Assembly (NCBI GenBank): GCA_014379385.1
Contig: JACMLW010000227.1
Location: forward strand, 1 to 36,764
DNA length: 36,764 nucleotides
Direction of reading: 5' to 3'
DNA from: Phycisphaerales bacterium
Lineage (GTDB): Bacteria > Planctomycetota > Phycisphaerae > Phycisphaerales > UBA1924
Made by a program: the position numbers and the translations under genes
Part shown: positions 6,257-30,561 of the stretch, in pieces
How positions within the stretch are numbered: the stretch's first letter is position 1
Layout: every line of letters starts with the position of its first letter
The notes under the pieces: model-generated
The model's input: only the letters and a program-made list of their open reading frames with translations
Database searches by the model: none
Told to the model about the DNA's origin: nothing

Positions 6257-7408
6257 ATGATCCACGTCGCGGCCCAACCCCTTTCACTGTCGCAACCGGT
6301 GCTCAACCACCAGGCGCCGGCGGTCCGTGCCGTGGCGAAAACGGTTTGCGTGAGCGTGATCGTCCCGACGTATCGGGAGGCCCAGAGCCTCCCGCATCTT
6401 CTCGCGCGGCTAGACCGGGTCCGGCAGGAGCATCGGTTCGAGCTGGATGTCCACATCATGGACGATTTCAGCGATGACGGGAGCCGCGAAGTGGTCGAGG
6501 CGGCTGGGCTTCCCTGGGTTCATTTCCATGAGCGTCAGGGAACACGGGGCCTGAGTCCCGCCGTACTCGACGGCCTGACGCTTGCACTATCGCCGGTCTT
6601 AGTGGTCATGGACGCCGATCTCAGCCACCCCCCGGAGGTGATTGCGCCGATGGTGGCCGCGCTGGATGAGGGCGCCGAGTTCGTTGTCGGCTCTCGGTAC
6701 ATCCGCGGCGGCTCGACGGATACCGAGTGGACGCTCTATCGCCGGCTCAACAGCCGGATCGCCACCCTGCTGGCACGCCCGCTGACTCGGCTGCACGACC
6801 CGATGTCCGGGTTTTTCGCGTTCCGGCGGAGCCTGCTCGACTCCGCGGGCCATCTGAACCCCATCGGCTACAAGATCGGGCTCGAGCTTCTCGTCAAGTG
6901 CGACGCACAGCATGTGGCCGAGGTGCCCATCCACTTCGCCGACCGTGTGCATGGCGAGAGCAAGCTGACCCTCGCGCAGCAACTCCGCTATATCCAGCAC
7001 CTCAGGCGGCTCTACCTGTTCCGGTATGCCGAAGCGACCCACGTGGCCCAGTTCCTCGTGGTGGGAGCCAGCGGGGTGGTGGTCAACCTCGGGGTGCTCA
7101 CGATCGCGCTGGGCCTTGGCGCTGAACGATTCCTCGCGCTCGCGCTCGGCATCCTGGTGAGCGTCATTGGGAACTTCCTGCTCCACCGACGATTCACGTT
7201 CTCTTACGCTCGGCGGGGCCCCAGACTCGGGCAGTTCGCCGGGTACTGCGTCGCGTGCCTGCTCACTGCGGGGGCGAGCTTCCTCACGTCGATCGCGATG
7301 TCGGGCGCGGTTCCGGATTGGCCGCTGCAGGTCGCCGCCCTGGCGGGGATCGCAGTCGGAACGGGGCTTAACTACCTTCTCGGGCGCTTCGTGGTGTTCC
7401 GCAAATGA
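6257..7408 (+). CDS. Polyprenyl-phosphate sugar synthase: DPM1-like GT2 domain fused to GtrA membrane domain
   Basis: The 383-residue product combines a family 2 glycosyltransferase domain of the dolichol-phosphate mannosyltransferase type (residues 32-255) with a four-span GtrA-like membrane domain (about 262-383). GT2 landmarks are SVIVPTYRE (33-41), MDDFSDDGS (68-76), the metal-binding DADLSHPP (119-126), VGSRY (144-148) and MSGFFAFR (183-190). Such enzymes move a hexose from GDP- or UDP-sugar to a polyprenyl phosphate at the inner face of the membrane, and GtrA domains are thought to help move the lipid-linked sugar across. The start is fixed by GGAGG 8 bases upstream. Its last codons overlap the next gene (ATGA), so the two are translationally coupled, which suggests that this enzyme supplies the donor used by the following GT-C protein. 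Confidence 0.92.
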   Translation: MIHVAAQPLSLSQPVLNHQAPAVRAVAKTVCVSVIVPTYREAQSLPHLLARLDRVRQEHRFELDVHIMDDFSDDGSREVVEAAGLPWVHFHERQGTRGLSPAVLDGLTLALSPVLVVMDADLSHPPEVIAPMVAALDEGAEFVVGSRYIRGGSTDTEWTLYRRLNSRIATLLARPLTRLHDPMSGFFAFRRSLLDSAGHLNPIGYKIGLELLVKCDAQHVAEVPIHFADRVHGESKLTLAQQLRYIQHLRRLYLFRYAEATHVAQFLVVGASGVVVNLGVLTIALGLGAERFLALALGILVSVIGNFLLHRRFTFSYARRGPRLGQFAGYCVACLLTAGASFLTSIAMSGAVPDWPLQVAALAGIAVGTGLNYLLGRFVVFRK

Positions 7409-13350: not shown

Positions 13351-16300
13351 ATGGCCGCGGCGACACCGGAACAAGGAGGTTCGGTCGGGCAAGCATCGTT
13401 GGGGAGCGGTGGAGGTGGCACGCCCCTTTCGCGGGACCGCCAGTTTGCCCACCTTCATCTGCACACGGAATACTCACTCCTCGACGGTGGGAATCGCGTT
13501 GATAAACTGATTTCGCGCGTGAAAGAACTGGGCATGACTGCGGTCGGAATCACCGACCACGGCAACATGCACGGGGCCGTCGCCTTCTATCAGACTTGCA
13601 AGGACAAGGGCATCAAGCCCATCCTCGGCGTTGAGGCCTACGTCGCGCCCGGGGACCGCAAGGACCGCACCTACACCGGTGTCTCCGATGGCGGGTACCA
13701 CCTCGTCCTGCTCGCCGAGAACATCGCGGGCTGGAACAATCTTCTTTATCTCTGCTCCGAGGCATACCTCACCGGGTTTTACTTCAAACCGCGAATCGAT
13801 CGCGACCTGCTCGAGAGACATGCGGACGGGTTGATCGCCATCAACGGCCACCTCGGCAGCGAGCTCGGCGAGTACCTGCTCAGCTACGAGCAGTCCGGCG
13901 AGGAGAAGTGGTGGTTCAAGGCCCTCGACGCCGCGGCGTGGCATGCCAAGACGTTCAAGGGTCCGCAGCCGCGCTTCTACATCGAGCTCCAACGGCACAT
14001 CGCGGAACAGAACTCGATCAACAAGCATCTCATCCGGCTGGCCCGCGAGCTGGCCCTCCCGCTCGTAAGCGACAACGACGCGCACTTTCTCCGGCGCGAG
14101 GACCACGACGCCCACGACACGCTCATCTGCATCTCGATGGGCAAGGGCAAGCATGACACCGATCGCCTGAAGTACCCGCTGGAGCTCTACGTAAAGTCAC
14201 CCGCGGAGATGCGCGAGGTGTTCGAGGCCGAGGGCGAAGCCGGCCGCGAGGCCTGCGACAACACTGTTCGCATCGCCGAGCGGTGCAATGTTGAGCTCCC
14301 GATCGGCGCGAGCCACGCCCCGATGGTGAGGGTGAGGAGGAAGCAGACAGGGGACAGGGGACAGGGGACAGCCAAGCGGACACAAAAAGCTAGCGGGGAG
14401 TGGTCCGACCTGCCGCGCCACGACGATCCCGCCTTCGGCGGCGACCTCACAGTGTGGTACAAGGCCTACTGCGACCAGTTCGAAGCCGTCCCATTCCGCG
14501 TGCCCGACGATGCCGACGCCGATGAAGCGACCCGCCTCAAGGCCGAAGCCAAGGCCGAGTGCGACGCCGCGCTGCGGATGCTCTCCGAAGGCGGCCTCAT
14601 CTGGCGGTATGGGCCAGAAGAAGCCGGCAAACCGGCAGATCAGAATGGCAGCAGGGCCGAGACGACGCCCGTTCAACCCGCTCGCGATGAGATCCGCGCC
14701 CGTCTCGATCGCGAGCTCAAGATCCTCTGCGACAAGGGCATCAGCGCCTACTTCCTCATCGTCTGGGACTTCGTCAACTGGGGCCGCCAGCAGGGCATCC
14801 CCGCCATCGCCCGCGGCTCGGGCGTCGGCACCATGGTCGGCTACGTCATGGGCCTCTCCAACGCCTGCCCCGTGCGCTACGGCCTGCTCTTCGAGCGCTT
14901 CACCGACCCCGATCGCTCCGAATACCCCGATATCGATATCGATCTCTGCCAGGACGGCCGCGCCCGCGTCATCGACTACGTGCGCACCAAGTACGGGCAC
15001 GTCGCTCAGATCATTACCTTCGGGACGCTCAAGGCCCGCGCGGCCATCCGCGACGTCTCGCGTGTGCTCGGCATCTCGCTGCCCGTCGCCGACCGCGTCG
15101 CGAAGATGATCCCCGAGCAGCTCAATATCACGCTCGACGAGGCACTCGAGCAGGAGCCCGATCTGCGCGCGTTGTACGAGGGCAAGCCCGCGGCCCTCGA
15201 GAAGATCAACAAAGATCTCCCCACCGAGCAGAGCGCGCAAGCCGAGCAGCTCCACGCGCTCATCGATAACGCCCGCACCATCGAGGGCCAGGCTCGCCAC
15301 GCCAGCGTGCACGCCGCGGGCGTCATCGTCGCCACGCGTCCGCTCTACGAGGTGGTCCCGCTCTACAAGGCCAGCGGCGCCGGTGAGAACGAGGTCGTCA
15401 CGCAGTGGGATGGCCCCACCTGCGAGAAGATGGGCCTTCTGAAGATGGACTTCCTGGGCCTGCGCACCCTCAGTGTTGTCGAGCGCTGCAAGCAGATGAT
15501 CCGTGAAGGCATCGCCGAAGTCGCCATTTGGGCTGCGGTGGGCCGCGCCAGCGAGCCCGCCGGTCGCGCCACTTCCAGATCCCCCCACCCGCTCGATCTG
15601 GATCGCCTGACCTTCGACGACCAGCGCGTCTTCGAGCTCTTCCGTCGCGGCGACACCACCGGTGTCTTCCAGTTTGAGTCCCCCGGCATGCGCCGCCTTC
15701 TTATGGAGATGAAGCCCGACCGTCTCGAAGACCTCATCGCCGCCAACGCTCTCTTCCGCCCGGGGCCCATGGACCTCATCCCCGACTACAACCGCCGCAA
15801 GCACGGCGAGGACGCGGTGCCGAAGGTCCACGAGATCGTCGATCGCTACACCGACGAGACCTACGGCGTCATGGACTACCAGGAGCAGGTCATGCAGATC
15901 GTGCACGGCCTGGGCGGCATCAAGCTGCGCGACGCCTATTCGCTCATCAAGAATATCTCCAAGAAGAAGCACGACAAGATCGAGAAGGAGCGGCCCAAGT
16001 TCGTCGAGGGCGCGCAGAATCAGGGCCTCTCCAAGCCCGCCGCCGAAGACCTCTTCGAGCTCATTCTGAAGTTCGCGGGGTACGGCTTCAACAAGAGCCA
16101 CTCCACGGGGTACGCCATCGTCGCGTACCAGACGGCGTACCTCAAGACGTTCTTCCCCAACCAGTACATGGCCGCGTTCCTCACATACGAGAGCCAGGCG
16201 AGCAAGGTCAGCGAGTGGATCCCATATCTGGAGGACTGCAAGAAGACGCGGTTTCCCAGTTGGAATCACGCCCCGGCCAAGGTCGGCGTCGAGGTGCGCC

Positions 16301-20343: not shown

Positions 20344-22149
20344 TTAGAACGGCGCGCCCTCGTCGTTCTCTTCCCATTTGGCCGGGCCGCCTCCATCGCG
20401 GAAGTTGTTGACGGGACCGGTCTTCTTGCCGGACGTAAACCCGCCGGGACCGGGCGCGCCGCCCGACGCCGGCGGCCGGGACGCGGGATCGCCAAACGCA
20501 CCGCCCCCGCCCTGTCTTTGGTGCGAGCTTGAAGGGCCAGCCTGCCTCATCGGATTCGCCGGGGCCGGTGGCGCTCCGTACCCGCCGCCGCCATACCCAC
20601 CGCCTCCGCCCCCCCCGCCCGCGTACCCGCCGTCCCCCCTCGCGTGGCGCGTTGAGTTCTTGAAGCGGGTGGTGTCGCGGTCCCACGTCAGCTTCACCAC
20701 GTCGGTCGGGCCGTTGCGCTGCTTGGCGATGATGATCTCGGCGACGCCGATCTTCTCCTCGTTCTCCGGGTCGTTCGCCCAGTTCGAGTCGCCCACGTGG
20801 TAGTACTCCTCGCGGTGCAGCAGCGCCACCACGTCGGCGTCCTGTTCAATCGAGCCCGACTCGCGCAGGTCGCTCATCCGAGGCCGGTTGTCCCCGCGTG
20901 TTTCCGGCCCGCGGTTGAGCTGCGAGAGGCAGATGATCGGGATGTCCAGTTCGCGCGCCAGCGCCTTCACGCCGCGGCTGATCGCCGAGACCTCGACCTG
21001 GCGGCTCTCGCGGGCCGCGTTCGGCGCCGTCATCAGCTGCGGGTAATCGACGAACAGGCACTTGAGCTTGTACTGTTGCTTCATGCGGCGGGCGCGGGTG
21101 CGCAGCCCGAGCACGGTGAGGCCCGGCGTGTCATCGATGTAGATTTGAGCCTCGCGCAGTTTGTCGCAGGCGCGCTGCGCCGAGTCGAGCTTGTGCTGCG
21201 CCAGCCGGCCCGAGCGCATCTCATGGCTCGAGATCCCCGAGTACGAGCTCAGCAGACGCTGCGCGATCGCGCTCTTGGACATCTCCAGGCTGAAGAACCC
21301 GACCGCCTGCGGCTCTCCGTGCTTGTGGCCGTAGGGAGTCCCCCCCATCGCGATCTGCTCGGCCAGATTGAGCGCGAGCGCCGTCTTGCCCATGGAGGGG
21401 CGTGCGGCCACGATGATCAGCTCGCCGTTCTGCAGCCCGCTCGTCAGCTCGTCGAGGTCGGTGTACCCGGTGCGGATGCCGCTCACCGCGTGCTCATCGC
21501 GCTCCAGCAGCCGCTCGTACTCGATCTGCAGGAGCGCCTCGAGCCGCTCAGGGTCCGAATCCTGCGACTCCTCCGCGATCTTGAAGATCATCTCCTCGGC
21601 GCCGTCGAGGATCTCCCCGGCGCCGTCCGGCCCCAGCTCCCCCGCGTGGTAGGCGTCGTACGCGATCTGTCCCGCCGCCGCGATCAGCTGCCGCAGCTTG
21701 TACTTCTGCGCCACGATCCGCGCAAAGTGCGGCGCCGCGGCCACCGCCGGCGTCTCGCGCGCCAGCTTCATCAGGTAGTCCGGGCCGCCGACGTCGGTCA
21801 ACACCTCCTTGTCGCGCAGCGATTCGCCGAGCATGACGAGGTTGCCCGCCTGGTGCCGGTCGTAGAGCTGCACCAGCGACTCGTAGATCGCGCCGTGCGC
21901 CGCTACGTAGAACGCATCGGCGCTCTTGACGACGCTCAGCACCTCGCCCGTCACCTTGGGGTCGAGGATCATCGCGCCCAGCAAAGCCATCTCCGCCTCG
22001 GGCGAGTGGGGGGGCAGCTTGTCGAAGAGCTTCCCGAGCTCGATGTTAACCTCGCGGAATCGCTTTGGAGGGCCGCCGCGCCCCTTCCCGTTCGAGCCGT
22101 GGGAGGGGGAGAGGCCGTTCGAGTTTCCGTTAGTTCCAAAGGTGCTCAT
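20344..22149 (-). CDS. dnaB: Replicative DNA helicase DnaB with Gly-rich, SSB-like C-terminal tail
   Basis: The hexameric replicative helicase, 601 residues against about 470 in E. coli. It has an N-terminal DnaB domain (about 44-150, starting PPHSPEAEMALLGAMI), a RecA-like domain with Walker A ARPSMGKT (249-256), Walker B CLFVDYPQLM (364-373), SQLNRGPETRGDNRPRMSDLRESGSIEQDAD (409-439) and IIIAKQRNGPTD, ending near residue 500. A further 100 residues are Gly/Pro/Ser-rich and finish with WEENDEGAPF, an acidic tip with terminal Pro-Phe like that of single-stranded DNA-binding protein. ATG 22149 is chosen because the 78 codons upstream overlap the divergent pdxH and its promoter. About 40 low-complexity residues precede the conserved domain. 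Confidence 0.95.
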   Translation of the reverse strand: MSTFGTNGNSNGLSPSHGSNGKGRGGPPKRFREVNIELGKLFDKLPPHSPEAEMALLGAMILDPKVTGEVLSVVKSADAFYVAAHGAIYESLVQLYDRHQAGNLVMLGESLRDKEVLTDVGGPDYLMKLARETPAVAAAPHFARIVAQKYKLRQLIAAAGQIAYDAYHAGELGPDGAGEILDGAEEMIFKIAEESQDSDPERLEALLQIEYERLLERDEHAVSGIRTGYTDLDELTSGLQNGELIIVAARPSMGKTALALNLAEQIAMGGTPYGHKHGEPQAVGFFSLEMSKSAIAQRLLSSYSGISSHEMRSGRLAQHKLDSAQRACDKLREAQIYIDDTPGLTVLGLRTRARRMKQQYKLKCLFVDYPQLMTAPNAARESRQVEVSAISRGVKALARELDIPIICLSQLNRGPETRGDNRPRMSDLRESGSIEQDADVVALLHREEYYHVGDSNWANDPENEEKIGVAEIIIAKQRNGPTDVVKLTWDRDTTRFKNSTRHARGDGGYAGGGGGGGGYGGGGYGAPPAPANPMRQAGPSSSHQRQGGGGAFGDPASRPPASGGAPGPGGFTSGKKTGPVNNFRDGGGPAKWEENDEGAPF

Positions 22150-22218
22150 CCGTGAGCTCCAGTGTTGCACGACCGGCGCTCCGCGCCGACTATTGACAGC
22201 TTCCCCCACGCACAACCG

Positions 22219-22224
22219 TACACT
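22219..22224 (+). promoter_or_regulatory. Possible -10 element of a leaderless pdxH transcript
   Basis: TACACT lies 8 bases before the pdxH ATG, with no Shine-Dalgarno between them, so transcription could start at or next to the ATG. A TTGACA at 22193-22198 sits upstream, but the 20-base spacing is longer than usual. A similar TTTACACTG occurs upstream of dnaE near 13309-13317. Confidence 0.3.
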
Positions 22225-22232
22225 GCGCCCCG

Positions 22233-22946
22233 ATGCCCAATCTTGACCAGTCCGACGCGATGGACATCGAGCAACACCTACCCGACGACCTCCCGGCCGA
22301 CCCCATGCCGCTGGTCGAACGGTGGCTCGCCGACGCCACCACCCGGCGCGTGCAGCCCAACCCCAACGCGATGGCCCTCGCAACCGTTAGCCCCGCCGGT
22401 GAGCCCGAGGCGCGAATTGTTCTCCTCAAAAAAATCGTCCCCAACCCCGGGTTTGTGGTTTTTTATACAAACTATCGGGGAACAAAGGGTCTTTCGCTTG
22501 CCGCAAACCCGATCGCCGCGGCGGCCCTTCACTGGGACGCTCTTGACCGCCAAGTGCGGTTCCAAGGTCCGGTAACTCGCTCTCCTGTCGGTGAGAGCGA
22601 TGCCTATTTCGCCTCGCGCCCGTGGCTCAGCCGTATCGGGGCCTGGGCGAGCGACCAGAGCTGCCCGATCGAATCACGCCGCGCCCTCGCAGAGAAACTC
22701 GATGCCACCCTCCGGCGCTTTGGCATTGATCCGTCTAATCCGCCCCCGGACAGTGCGGCCATCAAAATACCGCGACCGCCATATTGGGGTGGATTCCGAA
22801 TTTGGGTGCGCCGGCTTGAACTGTGGGTTGGCGGCACCGGTCGGCTGCACGATCGCGCCGCGTGGACCCGTGAACTGATCGCAAATCCGGAATCCGTAGA
22901 TGGGTACCGCGAGTCCCCGTGGGTCGCGACACGTTTGCAACCTTGA
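22233..22946 (+). CDS. pdxH: Pyridoxamine/pyridoxine 5'-phosphate oxidase
   Basis: PdxH oxidises pyridoxine or pyridoxamine 5'-phosphate to pyridoxal 5'-phosphate with FMN and oxygen. The 237-residue product has the family pattern in order: PNAMALATVSPAGEPEARIVLLKK, FVVFYTNYRGTKG (FMN contacts), NPIAAAALHW, RQVRFQGPVTRSP, YFASRPWLSRIGAWASDQS, and the C-terminal WGGFRIWVRRLELWVGG with RLHDR. Length is normal. It is divergent from dnaB with an 83-base gap. No ribosome-binding site precedes the ATG. Confidence 0.95.
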   Translation: MPNLDQSDAMDIEQHLPDDLPADPMPLVERWLADATTRRVQPNPNAMALATVSPAGEPEARIVLLKKIVPNPGFVVFYTNYRGTKGLSLAANPIAAAALHWDALDRQVRFQGPVTRSPVGESDAYFASRPWLSRIGAWASDQSCPIESRRALAEKLDATLRRFGIDPSNPPPDSAAIKIPRPPYWGGFRIWVRRLELWVGGTGRLHDRAAWTRELIANPESVDGYRESPWVATRLQP

Positions 22947-28657: not shown

Positions 28658-29344
28658 ATGCCACACGGAATCCGCGACATGCCGGCCGACCTTTCGTCCG
28701 AGCCCGCTGTTCGCGAGCTCGTCGAGATGGCGTTGAGCCTCACCGTCGGGGCTCCCACGCTCCCTCCGTTGCCGGAGCACGCGGCCACGCTGCGCGACTT
28801 CATCACCGATGCCTCGCTCGCGGCCCTTTGCGATGAGCTCTCTCGCGCGACCGGCGCCCCCATCTGGCTCGAAGACCGGAACGGCGAGGCCATCGTGCCC
28901 CGGCGCGCCCACGACGGGCACCGCTCAACCGCTGCGTGGGAGTTTATTGCGCACGAAGCGGCCCACAAGAGGGCCGCGCAGCTCGCGGGGCGCACCTACG
29001 ACCCCGTCGCCGAGCTCTTTGCCGTTCCCCTGCGCGTTTCGACGGGCACGCTGGGTCACCTCATCATGGCCGGCGGAGAGAACGGTGGGTATGGGGAGAG
29101 TGACAGTGGGGGGGGGGGGCGGCGGGTCTTGGTGGGGGGCTGGGAGTGGTTGAGCCGGCTGACTCGGCTCTGGACGACCAGCGTCGCCACCGCGTCACGA
29201 ATCGGTCGCTCGAGATCGCGCTCACGCGTCTCGCCTCGGCCATCTCCGAAGGGTGCGAGGCGCAAGTGGCGCTGCGGCGGCGAGTGCTCGAGCTGGGCGC
29301 GCTGCACCGACTCAGTTCGCTCCTCGTGCAGACCGAGGACGTGA
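28658..29344 (+). CDS. 5' part of a PocR-like/GAF/PP2C regulatory phosphatase, frame lost at a G12 run
   Basis: Residues 1-150 look like a sensory domain: LRDFITDASLAALCDELSRATGAPIWLEDRNGEAIVP and PVAELFAVPLRVSTGTLGHLIMAGGE resemble PocR-type domains (two-helix opening, then a PAS/GAF-like sheet). At the run of 12 G (29108-29119) this frame continues into sequence of shadow type (Arg/Ser/Trp-rich) that stops at 29344, while the real downstream domains are in another frame. One more G, two fewer, or a -1 ribosomal slip would join them to a 634-residue protein. The start is uncertain: ATG 28658 or ATG 28679; a TTG at 28619 is also open. No clear ribosome-binding site is seen. Confidence 0.65.
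   Translation: MPHGIRDMPADLSSEPAVRELVEMALSLTVGAPTLPPLPEHAATLRDFITDASLAALCDELSRATGAPIWLEDRNGEAIVPRRAHDGHRSTAAWEFIAHEAAHKRAAQLAGRTYDPVAELFAVPLRVSTGTLGHLIMAGGENGGYGESDSGGGGRRVLVGGWEWLSRLTRLWTTSVATASRIGRSRSRSRVSPRPSPKGARRKWRCGGECSSWARCTDSVRSSCRPRT
29108..29119 (+). repeat. Run of 12 G at the frameshift point of the PP2C gene
   Basis: Twelve consecutive G bases inside a Gly-rich linker. Frame analysis shows codons before the run and the GAF/PP2C codons after it differ by one base. The frame used downstream has a TGA at 29101-29103, so it cannot extend upstream of the run. Confidence 0.95.
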
Positions 29345-30561
29345 ACCGTCTGCTCAACGTTGCCCTCGATCTTGCGATCGAGGTGCTCGGCGTGGACGCC
29401 GGCTCCATCGCCGTGATCGAGGAAGACCGCGACGAACTCGTGGTGATGGGCTCGCGGAACTTGAGCGAGACTTGGGTGGTGCAGTCGGCGCTCCTCTCGC
29501 ACGGCGGCGCCCTCCGCAAGAACGCGCTCGCCGGCGAGATTGTGTGGGTCAACGATCTGGCCGAGGACGAGCGGACGATCAACCCGGAGGGCGCCCGCGA
29601 GGAGAAGCTGTGCAGCCTCCTCTCCACAGGCCTGATGGACCAGGGCCGCCCCATCGGGCTCATCCGCCTCTACACCCGCTCGCCGCGCGAGTTCACACCC
29701 GCCGAGCACGGCCTGCTCCGCTCCATTGCTGATCAGTCCGCCGCGGCCGTCATGAACGCCCGCCTCAAAAAACTGCGCGAGGAGAACGAGAGGGTCGCGC
29801 GCCAGGTCAGCCTCGCGGCCGATGTCCAGCGGCGCATGCTGCCGCGATCAATGCCCGAAAGCATGGTGTTCGATATCGCCGCGCGATACATCCCTTCCTT
29901 CGAGCTCGGCGGTGATTTCTACGACTTCATCCCGCTCGGCGGCCATCTCGGGATCGCGGTGGGCGACGTCGTCGGCAAGGGCGTCGCCGCGGCGCTGCTC
30001 ATGTCCGCCGTGCGAGCCAGTCTTCGCGCCCACGCCCAGGATCTGTACGACCTCGATGAGGTGTGCTCGCGCGTGAACGCCGCCCTCGCCGCCGACACCC
30101 GCGACTACGAGTTCGCCACGCTCTGGTACGCCGTCATAGACCCCGTCACGCTCCGCCTTACCTACTGCAACGCCGGCCACAACCCCTCGATGCACTTTCG
30201 CGTCCGCAAGGACCGCCCCGTGGGCGAGCAGGACATCGCCGAGCTCGCCGAGGGCGGCATGGCCCTGGGCATCGACAAGCTCCATCGCTACGACCGCGGC
30301 ACCGCCTACCTCGCCCCCGGCGATGTGCTCTTCGCGTACACCGATGGCCTTACCGACGCGATGGATTTTTCCGGCCAGCGCTTCGGCAAGGCTCGGCTGC
30401 GCGCCACCCTGCTCGAGGCGATGAACGCGCAGCGAAATGGGGGGGCGGAGGTCACCGCCGCTTCGATCATCGAGCGTGTGTTCTGGCACCTCCGCCAGTT
30501 CTGCGGGCTCGCGCCCCGCAGCGACGATATTTCAGTGGTGGTGATGCGCGTCCGCGGCTGA
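29146..30561 (+). CDS. GAF plus PP2C-type (SpoIIE/RsbU-like) serine phosphatase, 3' part
   Basis: The readable product is 471 residues from GTG 29146, but this is probably the C-terminal part of the gene beginning near 28658. It has a GAF domain (about 45-195: LLNVALDLAIEVLGVDAGSIAVIEED through LLRSIADQSAAAVMNA), a coiled-coil-like linker (LKKLREENERVARQVSLAADVQRRMLP) and a SpoIIE-type PP2C domain (about 235-470) with GGDFYDF, GDVVGKGVAAALLMS, NAGHNP, FAYTDGLTDAMD and RSDDISVVVMR, so both metal-binding aspartate regions are intact. Such enzymes dephosphorylate anti-anti-sigma factors in stress or developmental signalling. No partner switch genes are adjacent. Internal initiation at this GTG would yield a phosphatase lacking the first sensor. 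Confidence 0.88.
   Translation: MVEPADSALDDQRRHRVTNRSLEIALTRLASAISEGCEAQVALRRRVLELGALHRLSSLLVQTEDVNRLLNVALDLAIEVLGVDAGSIAVIEEDRDELVVMGSRNLSETWVVQSALLSHGGALRKNALAGEIVWVNDLAEDERTINPEGAREEKLCSLLSTGLMDQGRPIGLIRLYTRSPREFTPAEHGLLRSIADQSAAAVMNARLKKLREENERVARQVSLAADVQRRMLPRSMPESMVFDIAARYIPSFELGGDFYDFIPLGGHLGIAVGDVVGKGVAAALLMSAVRASLRAHAQDLYDLDEVCSRVNAALAADTRDYEFATLWYAVIDPVTLRLTYCNAGHNPSMHFRVRKDRPVGEQDIAELAEGGMALGIDKLHRYDRGTAYLAPGDVLFAYTDGLTDAMDFSGQRFGKARLRATLLEAMNAQRNGGAEVTAASIIERVFWHLRQFCGLAPRSDDISVVVMRVRG

Follow-up and report, generated by a model that had tools for sequence, protein, structure and literature searches.

A frame break at a lineage-specific poly-G run in a sensor-phosphatase gene of a Phycisphaerales bacterium, best read as slippage in a normally intact gene

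The window analyzed here, a stretch of 36,764 nucleotides from a Phycisphaerales bacterium (contig JACMLW010000227.1), contains on the plus strand a sensor half and a phosphatase half that are recorded in two different reading frames. The N-terminal sensor half (28658..29107), a distant PocR/GAF-like domain that can be aligned with the N-terminal parts of 29 orthologues, belongs to a frame that is open from ATG 28658, or from the alternative in-frame TTG 28619, and passes through a run of exactly 12 G residues (29108-29119, flanked by T29107 and C29120) to a stop at 29344. The C-terminal half (29104..30561), with its GAF_2 and SpoIIE/PP2C phosphatase domains, lies in a frame that opens at 29104, right after a TGA at 29101, and extends to the stop at 30561; the first start codon in this frame is a GTG (29146..29148), which is preceded by GGTGGGGGG. 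The unshifted product that starts at ATG 28658 is 228 amino acids long and ends with an out-of-frame tail encoded by 29120..29344.

The original prediction placed the switch between the two frames exactly at the G12 run, and this is confirmed both by the open reading frames and by a codon-usage frame test, which maps the shift to the run and finds both halves to be strongly coding; the test was trained on the genes of the window and was right in 84 of 84 calibration windows taken from its own training genes. The offset of the sensor half relative to the GAF and SpoIIE/PP2C half is a -1 shift, that is, one base, and, as originally proposed, the addition of a single G joins the halves; the common frame is restored whenever the run has 13 or 10 bases modulo 3. 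Apart from this offset, both halves are undamaged, with no further stop or lesion in either of them.

In Pfam searches, the C-terminal half matched GAF_2 (E 2.3e-16) and SpoIIE/PP2C (E 5.9e-46), the latter (PF07228) with 157.3 bits against a cut-off of 25, and its translation contains the motifs GGDFYD, GDVVGKG, YTDG and SDD, which are the metal-binding Asp motifs of SpoIIE/PP2C. Judged by the domain score and these motifs, this half is a predicted SpoIIE/PP2C-type phosphatase. Assignment of the sensor half is less direct. It had been described as PocR-like, but the domain itself has no match to PF10114, and Pfam gives only GAF matches below the threshold; the part of the description that holds comes from four order-level orthologues (L027, L030, L033 and L036), the N-termini of which match PocR PF10114 with E-values from 1.7e-9 to 8.7e-8. 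Thus, the PocR label appears reasonable for the sensor in the window, albeit indirectly, via these orthologues. The domain order, sensor-GAF-PP2C, is the same as in GAF-SpoIIE/PP2C regulatory phosphatases of the RsbU/RsbP/SiaA kind, but the N-terminal sensor is divergent, and a search of the gene against NCBIfam yielded no equivalog, the match to SiaA, at 27.7 bits, lying below the cut-off of 700.

The phosphatase was found in all 61 genomes searched. The closest orthologous loci from other genomes, 29 in total, at the family and order levels, were read for frame, and every one of these encodes both halves in a single stop-free frame of about 540-850 amino acids, including the N-terminal domain. 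Because all 29 orthologues carry both halves in one frame, the locus in the window corresponds to one gene with a frame offset rather than to two genes. Comparison with related genomes, which the original prediction suggested as a check, accordingly identifies the intact form as the norm (29/29). The closest orthologue, from genome G015, is 58% identical to the sensor half and 67% identical to the GAF and PP2C portion; a contig scan for the phosphatase turned up no sister species but just two distant relatives, at 35% and 26% identity.

Alignment with the 29 orthologues shows that the linker between the halves is about 28 residues longer in the window than in these relatives. The Gly-coding insert comprises the 83 bases at 29080-29162, of which 60% are G; its GC skew is 0.69, compared to -0.11 and -0.06 on the flanking sides. 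No run longer than G7 is present in the linkers of the 29 orthologues; the G7 run itself occurs in G009 (L021), and a G run is lacking from the linker of the closest orthologue. Within this set of aligned sequences, both the insert and the G12 run are lineage-specific. The sole other stretch of the window that is as G/C-skewed as the linker insert, 20557-20620, belongs to a minus-strand gene for a DnaB-like helicase (20344-22383), of which it encodes the Gly-rich C-terminus.

All other runs within the window are no longer than G/C8, and when the window was shuffled 100 times with its dinucleotides preserved, the observed count of G9 matches was reached in 4 cases (mean 1.06). In the whole genome (3.12 Mb, assembled in 227 contigs), there are 42 G/C tracts of at least 10 bases, about one per 74 kb, of which 16 are at least 12 bases long. 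The distribution of the lengths has a slowly decaying tail (14 tracts of 10 bases, 12 of 11, 8 of 12, 3 of 13, 1 of 14, 3 of 16 and 1 of 17), and there are, in addition, 52 runs of exactly 9. Under a strict test, for which the sequence had to be clearly coding on both sides of the tract, 10 of the tracts of at least 10 bases are in frame and 3 are shifted; for runs of exactly 9, the respective numbers are 18 and 2. The gene in the window falls below the strict margin on the downstream side and is classified as shifted by a looser test. The genes with in-frame tracts, named here from their translations without a family search, include YidC, LysC, SerC, GatB, LigA, TsaE, IspE, NadE, Asd, SerS and CysS, with a G14 run in TsaE and a G13 run in LysC. 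Because many housekeeping genes carry similar tracts without a break in frame, the G12 run reflects a property of the genome as a whole and is not a dedicated switch of the gene in question. Furthermore, length calling in the assembly is not generally poor, as most tracts of about this length, or longer, are in frame.

True mid-gene breaks number three among the tracts of at least 10 bases, with the gene in the window included, and one among the runs of 9, which is the trend expected for slippage. A run of 10 G/C bases (L048 1501-1510; G000:C48 ~7376-7386) breaks a CapD-like Polysacc_synt_2 enzyme, both halves of which match PF02719; a 12-base run (L049 320-331; G000:C55 ~319-331) breaks a membrane-anchored protein, the upstream half of which has no Pfam match; and a 9-base run (L116 702-710; G000:C12 ~14354-14364) breaks an FGE-sulfatase-like protein, with both halves matching PF03781. 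Five other apparent frame shifts (L042, L114, L096, L155 and L232) turned out to be gene junctions and were discarded, with overlapping TGATG at the junctions of L042 and L114. A further shift, L088 in G036 (G036:C1 ~404819), was also rejected as a tract break. This gene is dnaX-like and adjoins a C10 run, but the slip is of the dnaX type and lies away from the C run: a stop closes the first frame shortly downstream of an A-rich site (AAKKR*), and the rest of the gene is in another frame, an arrangement that resembles the known programmed slip of dnaX.

Across the genomes of the family, the number of G/C tracts of at least 10 bases varies between genera from 0 to 94, with 69 in the single-contig genome G036. 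Among the tracts examined in four relatives (G036, G017, G020 and G030; the first 30 tracts for three of these genomes, many in unclear or intergenic places), 13 that are clearly coding are in frame and none is broken mid-gene, a small sample. The tracts of G017, G020 and G030 are located mostly outside clearly coding sequence. At G000:C132:9918-10029, long poly-G and poly-C blocks alternate at close spacing, and G017 and G041 have similar arrangements towards the ends of contigs. Such blocks, often located close to a contig end, might reflect artefacts of the assembly or breaks at which hairpins form.

Such G runs readily gain or lose bases, whether in the living cell or in the course of sequencing. 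The most plausible explanation of the break in the window is slippage at the G run, which is specific to this lineage, in a gene that, judging from its orthologues, is normally intact. Probably, poly-G expanded here incidentally, and the run slips at the level of the DNA, such that its length was either miscounted in the assembly or is mixed in the population. Under this scenario, the linker between the domains of a gene for a PocR/GAF-like sensor, GAF and SpoIIE-type PP2C phosphatase would have gained a G-rich expansion that codes for Gly, and DNA-level slippage, the presumed cause, would alter the length of the G12 run within this expansion. The slippage would take place either in the replicating cells, so that run lengths would differ within the population, or at the stage of amplification, sequencing or assembly. 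The recorded consensus would then represent an out-of-frame length that is presumably not the sole or not the true one. Copies with a run length that fits the frame would encode the full-length phosphatase, those with the recorded length would encode only the sensor fragment and no phosphatase, and no selected switch has to be assumed. This reading is favored by the intact frames of all 29 orthologues, by the position of the frame change at the run, by the conservation and strong coding signal of both halves, by the restriction of the insert and the run to one lineage, and by the 42 long tracts found genome-wide. Because such tracts are general in the genome and the family, housekeeping genes included, an incidental expansion is the simplest account of the G12 run. 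A purely technical origin is, however, disfavored by the predominance of in-frame long tracts in the same assembly, the G13 and G14 runs among them, and the break could also be fixed. Spurious Illumina indels are reported to occur in homopolymers in the Tatajuba paper (PMC8808543), and indel rates of 1e-4 to 1.6e-3 per division have been measured for G/C tracts of C. jejuni (PMC8355987), so that the literature lends weight to a technical and a biological cause alike.

Among the alternatives, a selected switch is the likeliest, followed by a fixed break and, as the least likely, a programmed slip. As a contingency locus comparable to bvgS, the G12 run would be an on/off switch of the phosphatase, and hence of the regulon downstream of it, among the cells of the population, which seems possible but rather unlikely. 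The run is a frame-setting homopolymer within a coding sequence, as in phase-variable genes, its length and base agree, exactly or nearly, with those of known switches (G8-G12; PMC8355987), and there is a precedent in a sensor gene, the C6/C7 tract of bvgS (PMC1891110). The other three broken genes, which encode the CapD-like enzyme, the secreted FGE-like protein and the membrane-anchored protein, lie outside the core set and are in part related to the cell surface, and none of about 11 tract-bearing core genes is broken; but that all 4 broken genes are non-core is not significant (~0.15, a hypergeometric estimate with hand-classified genes), and for the same reason core-gene depletion was dropped as evidence for real frameshifts as opposed to assembly errors. 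Moreover, the run is absent from all 29 orthologues, and the tracts are not concentrated in contingency functions but are found in housekeeping genes, such as GatB, LigA, YidC, SerC, LysC, TsaE, SerS and CysS, as well. In the literature searched, we found no report of phase variation in Planctomycetota. That the lineage employs expanded poly-G/C tracts as reversible switches of signaling and surface genes (the sensor-phosphatase, the CapD-like and the FGE-like genes) is, similarly, a tentative and rather doubtful proposition.

A fixed frameshift, which would make the gene either a recent pseudogene or a source of two separate proteins, with the phosphatase translated from GTG 29146, is improbable. 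It would take the assembled sequence as recorded, and the G-rich GGTGGGGGG is located upstream of this GTG at a Shine-Dalgarno distance, but none of the 29 orthologues is split, and the TGA at 29101 together with the overlapping sensor frame makes for an awkward arrangement. Any loss would have to be very recent, given that neither half is damaged and each has a strong coding signal. The sensor-less phosphatase initiated at the internal GTG, which the original prediction had envisaged for the off state, finds no support, given that this codon has no conserved counterpart in the linker of the nearest orthologue (L010). Still less credible is a programmed slip, a -1 ribosomal frameshift or slippage of RNA polymerase on the G run that would yield a short sensor along with the full-length phosphatase. 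The offset is in the -1 direction, the run supplies slippery GGG codons, and the frame scan is capable of detecting a probable genuine case elsewhere, namely, dnaX of G036. Against this possibility, the slip site and the frame arrangement are found in 0 of the 29 orthologues, and the predicted fold of the surrounding RNA is no more stable than that of shuffled sequences (MFE z 0.31), although simple hairpins may form. Because the run is not conserved and the local fold is unexceptional, a conserved programmed frameshift is unlikely, and the ribosomal slip site contemplated at the outset is, thus, not borne out. In addition, strong slippage on G runs would damage the products of the core genes that contain in-frame tracts of at least 10 bases, and transcriptional realignment usually occurs on A/T runs (PMC3711429).

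The closest parallel to a switch located in a sensor gene is bvgS of Bordetella pertussis, a histidine kinase gene in which C6/C7 phase variation has been proven by mixed populations and phenotype (PMC1891110). As in bvgS, a G/C homopolymer lies inside the coding region of a signaling sensor gene, so that a one-base change truncates the protein, and, as in B. pertussis, the genome is GC-rich, with many G/C tracts longer than 8. Unlike the C6 tract in the kinase, the G12 run is located in the linker of a phosphatase and is known from one assembled sequence. In the contingency loci of C. jejuni, poly-G/C tracts are concentrated in genes for surface structures, and their variation has been measured (PMC8355987). 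The shared feature is an intragenic G/C run, the length of which sets the frame on or off (8-12 bases in C. jejuni), but in the present genome, known from the assembled sequence alone, the tracts occur equally in housekeeping genes.

The G12 run can, accordingly, be regarded as a candidate on/off switch. If the run length varies in cells, the signaling phosphatase and its targets would be switched stochastically. If, instead, the recorded length is an assembly error, some genes that are recorded as split in assemblies of this kind may, in fact, be intact, which would be a warning, as long G/C tracts are common in the genomes of this family.
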